DNA of 64,000 nt from Streptomyces sp. NBC_00690 (lineage in GTDB: Bacteria; Actinomycetota; Actinomycetes; Streptomycetales; Streptomycetaceae): NCBI RefSeq assembly GCF_036226685.1, contig NZ_CP109009.1:4216001-4280000 (forward strand). Reading direction: 5' to 3'. This document shows, piece by piece, positions 26,490-32,386 of the stretch. The notes below the pieces were generated by a model that did no database searches, was not told the origin of the DNA, and worked only from the letters and a program-made list of their open reading frames with translations. The translations under genes and the position numbers were made by a program. Position 1 is the stretch's first letter, and the number at the start of each line of letters is the position of its first letter.

Positions 26490-26505
26490 TCGAACATTCG
26501 TACGA
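26490..26505 (+). promoter_or_regulatory. Near-consensus SOS (LexA) box
   Basis: TCGAACATTCGTACGA matches the actinobacterial LexA consensus TCGAAC-N4-GTTCGA at 11 of 12 defined positions (right half GTACGA). It ends 10 bp before the ATG of the PrimPol gene, a position where bound LexA would block transcription or a very short leader. Confidence 0.6.
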
Positions 26506-26515
26506 AAATAGAGCC

Positions 26516-27625
26516 ATGGCCACCATCGATCGGCAGACCGCCGCCCTGGCCCTCGCCCATGCCCTCTTCGCCGCCGAGCGCGGACTTCCGGTCATCCCGC
26601 TCTCGTCCAACAAGCTGCCCGCCCTGCGCTCACCGCACCGGGACGACGTCGAGCCGACGCACTGCCGCGGGGAATGCGGCCTGCCGGGACACGGAATCCA
26701 TGACGCCACCGTCGACCCGGCCGGAATCCGAGCGCTGTTCGCCGCCGCACCCTGGGCGACGGGCTACGGCATCGCCTGCGGCAGACCCCCACACCATCTG
26801 ATCGGCGTGGACCTTGATGTGAAGCCGCTGAAGCGCCGCTCGGACGCGACGCCGGCTGCGGGAACCCACCCACCGGGCGCCCCGGATTCGACCGGGCCAC
26901 CGGAGCGGGCGAGGGAACATCCGCCGACCCGCGGGCCACTGAGCACATGGGCCCCCGCCTCCGCCTCGTCGAACAGTGCGCCGAGCCGCTCCCAGAACTC
27001 CACCCGCTCGCTGGCGGCCCTGGCCGCCATGGAGGTGCTGGGCACGATGGAGACACAGGAATCCACCACCGATTCCCTTGCCGCACTCCATCACCTGGCG
27101 CTGCGCCACCTCTTCACCATCCCGGAGACGATCACGGTCCTCACTCCGAGCGGTGGCCGCCATCTCTGGTTGACCGGTCCGTCCGACGTCGTCGTACCGA
27201 ACTCGGCCAGCAGGATCGCCCCCGGCATCGACGTCCGAGGGGCCGGCGGCTATCTGGTCGGCCCCGGTTCGGTCACCGCCCAGGGCACCTATCGGCTCGC
27301 CCCCGGTACGGCCGGACTCTCCCCCGCCCCCTGCCCCACCGCACTCCTCCAGTTGATCGCACCCCCCGTACGTCCCTTGCCCACCGCACCCGCAGGGGCC
27401 CATCGACAACACGGGCGCGGACTGGTCCAGTTCGTACTCGCCGCACCCGAAGGCCAGCGCAACGCACGGCTGTTCTGGGCCGCCTGTCGGGCGTACGAGA
27501 ACGGCATCGGCAATGCCCTGGCGCCGGCGCTCACCCATGCGGCCGTCCGCACCGGTCTGACCGAACGCGAGGCGCGGGCCACCATCGCGTCCGCCGCCCG
27601 ACTCACATCGAGCCCCCGCCACTGA
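26516..27625 (+). CDS. PrimPol-domain protein (bifunctional DNA primase/polymerase type)
   Basis: A 369-residue archaeo-eukaryotic-primase-like protein. The N-terminus (ALAHALFAAERGLPVIPLS) and the metal-binding motif GVDLDVK (Asp99, Asp101) followed by TPSGGRHLWL (catalytic His) and YLVGPGS mark an intact Prim-Pol domain. An insertion of about 75 residues, rich in Pro/Ser/Ala (about 105-180), separates the acidic motif from the His motif. No helicase or other domain follows, so it is a stand-alone enzyme. A near-consensus SOS box lies immediately upstream. The gene converges on the ImuB-like/dnaE2 operon. Confidence 0.85.
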   Translation: MATIDRQTAALALAHALFAAERGLPVIPLSSNKLPALRSPHRDDVEPTHCRGECGLPGHGIHDATVDPAGIRALFAAAPWATGYGIACGRPPHHLIGVDLDVKPLKRRSDATPAAGTHPPGAPDSTGPPERAREHPPTRGPLSTWAPASASSNSAPSRSQNSTRSLAALAAMEVLGTMETQESTTDSLAALHHLALRHLFTIPETITVLTPSGGRHLWLTGPSDVVVPNSASRIAPGIDVRGAGGYLVGPGSVTAQGTYRLAPGTAGLSPAPCPTALLQLIAPPVRPLPTAPAGAHRQHGRGLVQFVLAAPEGQRNARLFWAACRAYENGIGNALAPALTHAAVRTGLTEREARATIASAARLTSSPRH

Positions 27626-27699
27626 ACGACGCCCGTGCATGGAACCGGACCTGCGCACGGGATCGGCCCTGTGCACGGACCGGGTGCCGAGGCCGTGGC

Positions 27700-31700: not shown

Positions 31701-32309
31701 TCCGGCTCCGGCTCCGGCTCCGGCTCCGGAATGACCGTGCCAGACGGCTTCCAGCCGCAGCGAAGGACCGAAGACCTCGCGCCAGGGAACGAGCAGCCGT
31801 TCGGCAAGGTCCGAACGCCCAGCAGCGAGCGCCCGCAGGGGCTCGGACACGGGCCCCAGCAGGGCGAACAGTCCCGTACCACCCCCCGCGTACTGCCTGA
31901 GCGCCTCCCAGGACACGACGGGATTGCCGGCGACGGGGTGAGCATGGGCCGCGGACGTGAGCCGACACAGCGCCGCCCACCCGACCCGGTCCTGTGCGAG
32001 CAGGGTGACGCGTAGGGGAGGCTCGGGGACATGGGCTCCACCGCGTACGGGGGTACGACGACGGGGCGAACGGTCGGGGCGCACCGGGGCCAGCGGCTCC
32101 ACGGCGAGATCGACCCCGAAGATGGGACGCACACCGTGCTCCAGCGCCGCCTTGGCAAAGCGAACCGCCCCGGTGACCGCATCCCGATCGGTCAGCGCGA
32201 GCGCCGCCATCCCACGCTCGGCAGCGCGTACCACCAGGTCACGGGGGTGCGAGGCGCCATAGCGGGTCGAGTAGCCGGACGCGACATGCAGATGGGTAAA
32301 ACCCTCCAT
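28749..32309 (-). CDS. dnaE2: Error-prone DNA polymerase III alpha-like subunit
   Basis: A 1186-residue C-family polymerase. GGGAGG precedes the ATG at 32309. The PHP domain starts FTHLHVASGYSTRYG; the catalytic aspartates are in PDIDLDVE (about residue 455) and in IKLDILGVR; an OB-fold region lies near the end. It lacks the tau-binding C-terminal extension of the replicative DnaE, as expected for DnaE2. A perfect SOS box lies 62 bp upstream. Together with the overlapping ImuB-like gene it forms a damage-induced mutagenesis cassette; no imuA is adjacent. A Gly-Ala repeat interrupts the PHP region at about residues 192-226. Confidence 0.93.
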   Translation of the reverse strand: MEGFTHLHVASGYSTRYGASHPRDLVVRAAERGMAALALTDRDAVTGAVRFAKAALEHGVRPIFGVDLAVEPLAPVRPDRSPRRRTPVRGGAHVPEPPLRVTLLAQDRVGWAALCRLTSAAHAHPVAGNPVVSWEALRQYAGGGTGLFALLGPVSEPLRALAAGRSDLAERLLVPWREVFGPSLRLEAVWHGHSGAGAGAGAGAGAGAVAGAGAGIGATAGAGTGAGSLRLAARTLGFGGRVGVPVVLANAVRYADPAQHRLADVLDSARLLRPIDRRRLDSGERWLKGPDAMRAVAERIARAAGEEGDASRLLAVTEDTAGACRLDTTADLGLKQRHFPEPGTVGAKDAVDAARVLRERCEAGLVRRGLDGDSAARTRLEEELAIISELEFDTYFLTVAQVVSDVREMGVRVAARGSGAGSMVNHVLHIATANPLDHRLLFERFMSRRRADLPDIDLDVESARRLDVYDRVIERFGRERVAITGMPETYRARHALRDTGLALGIAPAEVDRIAKSFPHIRASDITTALAELPELRQLAAEAAPYRLLFELAEGLDALPRGIAMHPCGVILTDSSLLDRLPVQPTPTGGYPMVQADKEDVEDLGMIKLDILGVRMQSAMAHATAEIERVTGRHIDLDDPRQVPLDDHFAFKLIQASDTLGMFQLESPGQMDLLSRLQPRDPQDVIADISLFRPGPVAGGMPEQYVAARHGRPVPSPHKDLEPILSDTYGVLIWHEQIIEIFHRFTGCDRAFGDLARRALGTPGRLPRVRDWFHREASARGYSSDVLTAVWKTIEGFGAYGFARAHAVAFAVPALQSAWLKAHYPAALYAGLLEHDPGMWPKRVIVADARRHGIAVLPVDINHSGADHTVEKAPDDTWGVRLSLSEVRGISGDEITRIAAARPYSSLSDFWQRARPSRPTAERLADIGAFHSVRGEMTRRDLLLQIAELHRQYRGRPLDDGQLPLRTDEPQAQGTGLPEMTSREELGAELRVLGIDVSRHLMDHHHQLLRELGATDARHLSELKAGENVLVAGVRAATQTPPIASGKRIIFVTLDDGSGMVDLAFFEDSHDDCAHTVFHSGLLLVRGTVQRRGGRSTVVGTMAWDLEALAVARRDQGPEAVYRLLGPAVAPVTGTSGARDSRGRRPRRTIEQETGASLHPWADLQPAGDLKTPDLSSLGYTSPGSAG
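31685..31726. repeat. Hexanucleotide microsatellite inside dnaE2
   Basis: Seven perfect tandem copies of CGGCTC, encoding alternating Gly-Ala on the minus strand. In-frame unit gain or loss would change linker length by two residues without frameshifting. Confidence 0.9.
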
Positions 32310-32370
32310 GCCGCACCTCCCAACCTGACCCCCTTTGCCAGTCTCGTACGAATCACCCCGAAAAGTGTCA

Positions 32371-32386
32371 TCGAACTTCTGTTCGA
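32371..32386 (-). promoter_or_regulatory. Perfect SOS (LexA) box upstream of dnaE2
   Basis: TCGAACTTCTGTTCGA is an exact match to the actinobacterial consensus TCGAAC-N4-GTTCGA, 62 bp upstream of the dnaE2 ATG. Confidence 0.88.

Follow-up and report, generated by a model that had tools for sequence, protein, structure and literature searches.

What is a stand-alone primase-polymerase doing next to an error-prone DNA polymerase, and do the two answer to the same damage signal? The question is raised by a 64-kb stretch of the genome of Streptomyces sp. NBC_00690 (positions 4216001-4280000 of contig C1, genome size 9.17 Mb; hereafter the window). Here the gene of a PF09250 protein of 369 residues (PrimPol; 26516..27625, + strand) converges on a two-gene operon (32309-27700, - strand) composed of dnaE2 and the gene of an inactive Y-family polymerase homolog, with 74 bases between the stops of the two converging genes. 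The initial annotation had pointed to this convergence and to a LexA-type box on each transcription unit, and both observations stand: the box of dnaE2, at 32371..32386 (-77 to -62), is perfect, and that of PrimPol, TCGAACATTCGTACGA at 26490..26505 (-26 to -11), has one mismatch to the consensus. It had also drawn from them a positional module of PrimPol, an ImuB-like protein and DnaE2, and this part of the proposal does not survive comparison with other genomes.

The answer put forward here, with a probability of about 0.55, is that PrimPol is a domesticated, LexA-repressed gene, predicted to belong to the SOS core of Streptomyces, whose product primes synthesis in single-stranded gaps, or fills them, after damage. 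Its control by LexA is well supported by genome comparison; its biochemical role is inferred.

A conserved operator before PrimPol

How much can be read into a single site with one mismatch? Sites with at most one mismatch number 34 in this genome, against 17 for the reversed pattern, so that a lone one is doubtful in general. In the window, three are seen (26490, 31132 and 32371, all within 5.9 kb) where a first-order model expects 0.12; per 200 bp, the chance expectation is 0.0004-0.0007.

The more telling evidence comes from relatives. PrimPol was surveyed in 101 genomes, and 73 of them, this one included, were examined. The conserved box that the initial annotation had proposed to look for in front of the gene is there: a one-mismatch operator lies no more than 400 bases before PrimPol in 62 of the 73, starting at exactly -26 in 55, and the mismatch always falls on one fixed position of the right half-site (T to A in 61 genomes, T to G in one). 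The reversed control motif never comes closer than 3 mismatches before PrimPol in the same 73 genomes. The longer pattern TCGAAC-N4-GTACGA-N10-ATGGC was found in 176 of 295 genomes, a single time per genome among the matches listed, and its reversed control in none; compared by eye, its ATG is the PrimPol start in G009, G049 and G100 and lies 0.2-0.3 kb further upstream in G036 and G064.

The box also stands out from its spacer and from the sequence further upstream. Across 59 distinct upstream regions, chosen by protein alone (14 of the 73 were omitted, as their alignments do not start at residue 1), the 12 bases of the box show 93-100% conservation, with a mean of 1.80 bits, against 0.47 bits in the spacer and 0.33 bits from -60 to -41. 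An earlier profile had been partly circular, as 30 loci were fetched via the operator pattern; repeated without them, it gave the same outcome. In a sister genus of the same family (g7), a one-mismatch operator is found in 9 of the 9 genomes sampled, with other letters in seven of them (e.g., ACGAACACGCGTTCGA or its complement); the printed ones differ upstream and have a leader with GGGAG. That the operator is kept despite a changed promoter points to selection for control by LexA.

These operators can be set beside known ones. The main text of the S. venezuelae LexA study gives the consensus tCGAAC-N4-GNNCGa, lists a dnaE2 box at -68 (Table 1), describes an intragenic LexA peak in dnaE2, and reports that in vitro a site named dnaE2-2, printed as TCGAACGTCCGTAC, was bound more tightly than dnaE2-1 (PMC9380542). 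The PrimPol operator, in its GTACGA form, is the same variant as dnaE2-2, with 14 identical letters in G242, and the GTAC variant recurs in the dnaE2 operators of two other loci (L195 and L196). PrimPol thus shares the operator type, GTAC variant included, of a regulon that counts dnaE2 and dinP among its members (PMC9380542), and a lexA gene is present in this genome. At the loci of the six remaining PF09250 genes of the genome, no site with one mismatch or fewer is present.

PrimPol has one mark of a member of the LexA/SOS regulon, a LexA-type operator in its promoter region that is conserved in relatives. The LexA control proposed by the initial annotation is strongly supported by this comparison and by the variant shared with an operator bound in vitro, and binding of LexA to the site, with induction of PrimPol by damage, can be predicted with high confidence.

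Some results weigh against this reading. Eleven of the 73 genomes have no one-mismatch site; nine of the 73 have a two-mismatch site, in three cases at a distance of 155-386 bases from the start given by the alignment, and two (G035 and G086) have nothing within 3 mismatches before PrimPol. Among the 101 genomes surveyed, 10 have no PrimPol match and 18 a weak or partial one, so that the gene is common, not universal. PrimPol is not named in the main text of the S. venezuelae study, where the word primase has 0 occurrences and is thus unmentioned among the named LexA targets (PMC9380542). Finally, a generic sigma-70 promoter scan of 26350-32800 detects no promoter.

How would repression work? 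In the 59 upstream regions, CTTCCC (-36 to -31; 26480..26485, + strand) and GANNNT (-12 to -7; 26504..26509, + strand) are conserved before PrimPol. If these candidate elements are read as -35 and -10, the transcript would start at the ATG, the mRNA would be leaderless, and the operator would lie over the -10 region. A leaderless PrimPol transcript is, on these motifs, the somewhat favored interpretation. The start of the gene is taken as ATG 26516 rather than TTG 26426, with which the longest open reading frame begins; the stop is at 27625.

A chromosomal primase-polymerase

PrimPol scores 108.6 bits against PF09250 (curated cut-off, 22.8), and the catalytic set of the archaeo-eukaryotic primase (AEP) superfamily is intact: D99 and D101 form the DxD of motif I, H216 represents motif II and D239 motif III. 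These residues are invariant, and an insert at about residues 103-183 is lineage-specific. The AEP fold is found in a predicted model of an ortholog (P0018), built on a wider alignment, which matches the pRN1 primase-polymerase; the model of the window protein, derived from a shallow alignment, was poor (mean predicted local distance difference test score, 55.3) and was not used for the structure comparison. The closest solved structure to the ortholog model is ORF904 (9aam, 233 residues), and the match reaches into the C-terminal helices. A sequence search with the single PrimPol protein against solved structures gave no match, and a profile search gave ORF904 at E of about 1 only. A PriCT_1 match on the ortholog is weak and below cut-off.

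Where did such a protein come from? Its relatives include matches on 107 phage and 218 plasmid records, all below 60% identity, and orthologs were found in two genera only and not in 15 other sampled genera of the family. Compared with the PF09250 Prim-Pols, among them pRN1 ORF904 and those encoded by integrative elements of actinobacteria (PMC3218068), PrimPol differs in having no helicase domain, no adjoining Rep, integrase or transfer gene, a conserved chromosomal place, and a LexA operator. The genes beside it encode a sigma factor, an acyl-CoA synthetase, tRNA-Ser and a trypsin/PDZ protease, and no replication module of an integrative element is present there. PrimPol would be a relative of the Prim-Pols of mobile elements that has been domesticated on the chromosome.

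Three further loci touch on this family. A second PF09250 gene of the window (39117-39851, - strand; 75.3 bits), 12 kb away, has lost the catalytic residues: S and P stand where the two D would be, L replaces the H, and the last D falls in a gap. Several other Streptomyces PrimPol loci contain DNA resembling part of this gene, and it is perhaps a non-catalytic Prim-Pol with a different job. Elsewhere in the same genome, at 5.93 Mb (L001, 1465-3545), another Prim-Pol gene is followed by an ATPase-like gene and resembles a mobile-element replication module. In G041 (C197, 2481948-2482287), the operator of PrimPol and its ATG are kept and the protein match covers the last 102 residues only, an apparent internal deletion with the control region retained.

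What could PrimPol do under SOS control?

In the undamaged cell, LexA would sit on the -26 to -11 operator, over the -10 element of a probably leaderless promoter, and transcription would be blocked. After damage, RecA on single-stranded DNA would trigger self-cleavage of LexA, and PrimPol would be produced at the same time as DnaE2 and the inactive Y-family protein that accompanies it. At stalled forks, the most likely task of PrimPol would be to begin or extend DNA in single-stranded gaps, and the system of DnaE2, inactive Y-family polymerase (PolY) and RecA, together with other polymerases, would copy the remainder. Their partnership would thus be one of shared control, and their adjacency here would follow from the placement of the operon in this lineage.

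Repriming or gap synthesis is the most economical reading of the role, with about even odds, because AEP enzymes as a family prime, extend and bypass. Two known systems offer parallels. Mycobacterial Prim-PolC is likewise a chromosomal bacterial AEP used in repair, and eukaryotic PrimPol belongs to the same superfamily, with repriming past lesions as the proposed common role (PMC8136793); it differs in coming from another branch and in its UL52-type zinc finger, and the role in bacteria is a presumed one. The replicative primase DnaG is regarded as the enzyme that reprimes at stalled forks of E. coli, whereas a dedicated PrimPol is present in most eukaryotes (PMC8136793). No paper describing a PrimPol under SOS control in Streptomyces or actinobacteria came up in searches of titles and the beginnings of abstracts, a scope that leaves aside subscription journals, supplements and regulon databases such as RegPrecise; one hit proved to be an entry in a reference list.

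Does the enzyme need to make primers at all? It could be an SOS-induced gap-filling or bypass polymerase that extends existing primers with no de novo priming, in the manner of Prim-PolC in the excision repair of mycobacteria. Related AEPs are described as working in this way (PMC8136793, PMC5663958), and the fold class is shared. However, the closest solved structure, that of ORF904, belongs to an enzyme that makes primers, the match to it includes the C-terminal helices, and the ortholog has the PriCT_1 match, weak and below cut-off as it is. Gap filling without priming is unlikely on this evidence, if the best placed of the alternatives.

A less probable option is that the single-stranded DNA in question is not that of stalled forks, and that PrimPol serves in telomere patching or in the handling of phage, plasmid or other incoming DNA. 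Translesion polymerases have been reported at Streptomyces telomeres, the relatives on plasmid and phage records would suit such a task, and the Ppol of Thermus is tied to defense against environmental DNA (PMC7693054). On the other side stand the orthologs, found in only two of the genera sampled, and the ordinary chromosomal genes that surround PrimPol.

A probable shared regulon, not a cassette

Could PrimPol, the Y-family protein and DnaE2 form one conserved positional unit? The convergent genes with LexA-type boxes on both sides invite this idea, and S. albipurpureus has the same arrangement. However, in 31 of the 31 other Streptomyces genomes where both genes are readable on one contig, a distance of 1.86-4.84 Mb (median 2.61) separates PrimPol from the best Y-family match, and at eight other loci the operon does not lie between PrimPol and tRNA-Ser. 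The cassette is accordingly rejected as very improbable, and with it the positional module of the initial annotation.

The eight PrimPol loci, taken from other genomes and compared with the window, also indicate how the arrangement arose. The tRNA-Ser stretch follows PrimPol at 0.1-3.4 kb in seven of the eight (in L174 the distance is 0.14 kb), and none of them contains DNA resembling the 27.63-32.67 kb part of the window (blastn, E up to 1e-10). Among the loci compared, only this genome and S. albipurpureus have the operon between PrimPol and tRNA-Ser. Since the genes are unlinked elsewhere and the eight loci are without the operon, it was probably placed between PrimPol and tRNA-Ser(tga) (32811..32898, - strand), its right-hand border gene, in the lineage of these two. 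As for a scar of integration at the tRNA, no att-type repeat was found, the longest exact tRNA match to 27500-28800 being 9 bases. By this comparison, the link between PrimPol and dnaE2 would be a shared regulon and not a shared cassette.

The S. albipurpureus locus (L024; G238 is the same species, identical over the 3.5 kb compared) has 86% identity to the window in DnaE2, 76% in the Y-family protein and 68% in PrimPol. Among the listed best matches in 392 genomes, only G238 and G336 have relatives of the Y-family protein that reach 69%; in G336, this copy is near a contig end, and a PrimPol-type operator lies 4 Mb away. The G336 locus (L194, C1 at about 0.22 Mb) is the closest relative of the window operon outside S. 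albipurpureus, with 67-69% identity in the Y-family protein, 74% in DnaE2, and a perfect operator, and the genome carries a further Y-family copy, of a more usual kind, at 6.67 Mb. The location of L194 and the second copy suggest that the window-type dnaE2 operon is mobile.

The last alternative, that a mobile-element gene in decay carries a box by chance, finds support in the expectation that about half of the one-mismatch sites of the genome arise by chance (34 against 17) and is rejected as hardly credible, given an operator conserved across genomes (62/73, 176/295 and the 59-region profile) where the reversed control is not, invariant catalytic residues with a ratio of about 0.27, and six other PF09250 genes whose loci have no such site.

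The dnaE2 operon

The open reading frame of dnaE2, an error-prone DNA polymerase III alpha homolog, spans 28749-32435 (- strand); its likely start is ATG 32309 (MEGFTHLHVASGYS), which gives a gene at 28749..32309 that overlaps the Y-family gene (27700..28752, - strand; 350 residues, with an IMS_C domain) by 4 bases. The best model for DnaE2 is an error-prone polymerase, at 625.7 bits, below its curated cut-off of 939. The genome has one full copy besides the replicative DnaE, plus a fragment match of 88 residues.

Is the Y-family protein an ImuB? It has no catalytic acids, as is seen in an alignment with REV1, whose catalytic D and E are replaced, and in an alignment of eight homologs, from which a ninth row (L026) that contains a stop was omitted. 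Its pairing with DnaE2 is a mark of the ImuA-ImuB-DnaE2 mutasome. However, QLTF near its end is followed by 34 residues, not by the C-terminal extension of ImuB (ImuB-C), and imuA is absent from the two-gene operon; the search for ImuA was confined to that operon. A dnaE2 gene with an inactive PolY without ImuB-C is the hallmark of the DnaE2-iPolY type, and scDinB2-like is the better name. The scDinB2 of S. coelicolor is an inactive Y-family protein coupled to DnaE2, with RecA proposed in the place of ImuA, and this putative mutasome shares the two-gene operon without ImuA or ImuB-C (PMC6511836, PMC12926913). The operon here differs in that it adjoins a PrimPol gene and is otherwise the same; the pair itself is already known.

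As for its control, a site with at most one mismatch is found just before dnaE2 in four of the seven loci scanned besides the window (L193, L194, L195 and L196) and not in the other three (L025, L027 and L028). Inside dnaE2, a LexA-type site with one mismatch (31132..31147) is also present in S. albipurpureus. In S. coelicolor, sco1738 and sco1739 are described as rising with recA and lexA upon altered topoisomerase levels, in passages that make no mention of a primase (PMC6637917).

Other features of the window and genome

A promoter and terminator scan of 26350-32800 gave no result. About 80 bases upstream of the PrimPol operator, an 11-base tandem repeat (GACCCGGAAGG, 4.9 copies) occupies 26356-26410; an ARAGORN call of tRNA-Trp at 26373-26459 overlaps it and is probably spurious. 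Within dnaE2, the hexamer CGGCTC is perfectly repeated 7.5 times (31685-31729) and encodes an Ala-Gly run, where a change in copy number would preserve the frame. On C1 of this genome, Y-family gene fragments occur at two places with a partial lexA-like match between them (L177, L178 and L228, at 0.753, 0.788 and 0.773 Mb); they appear to be remnants of other SOS genes on one arm of the chromosome.

Implications for Streptomyces

What would all this mean for the biology of the genus? Tentatively, Streptomyces and its sister genus may have captured from mobile elements a PrimPol that came under LexA control and reprimes beyond lesions during the SOS response. Such an enzyme would, with the same reserve, give bacteria a counterpart to the PrimPol pathway of eukaryotes, working beside the DnaE2/inactive-PolY/RecA system and chromosomally unlinked to it. 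If this is true, a damage-induced repriming enzyme of bacteria becomes directly testable in a genetically tractable genus, and so does the question of whether PrimPol directs lesions into mutagenesis by DnaE2 or diverts them from it.
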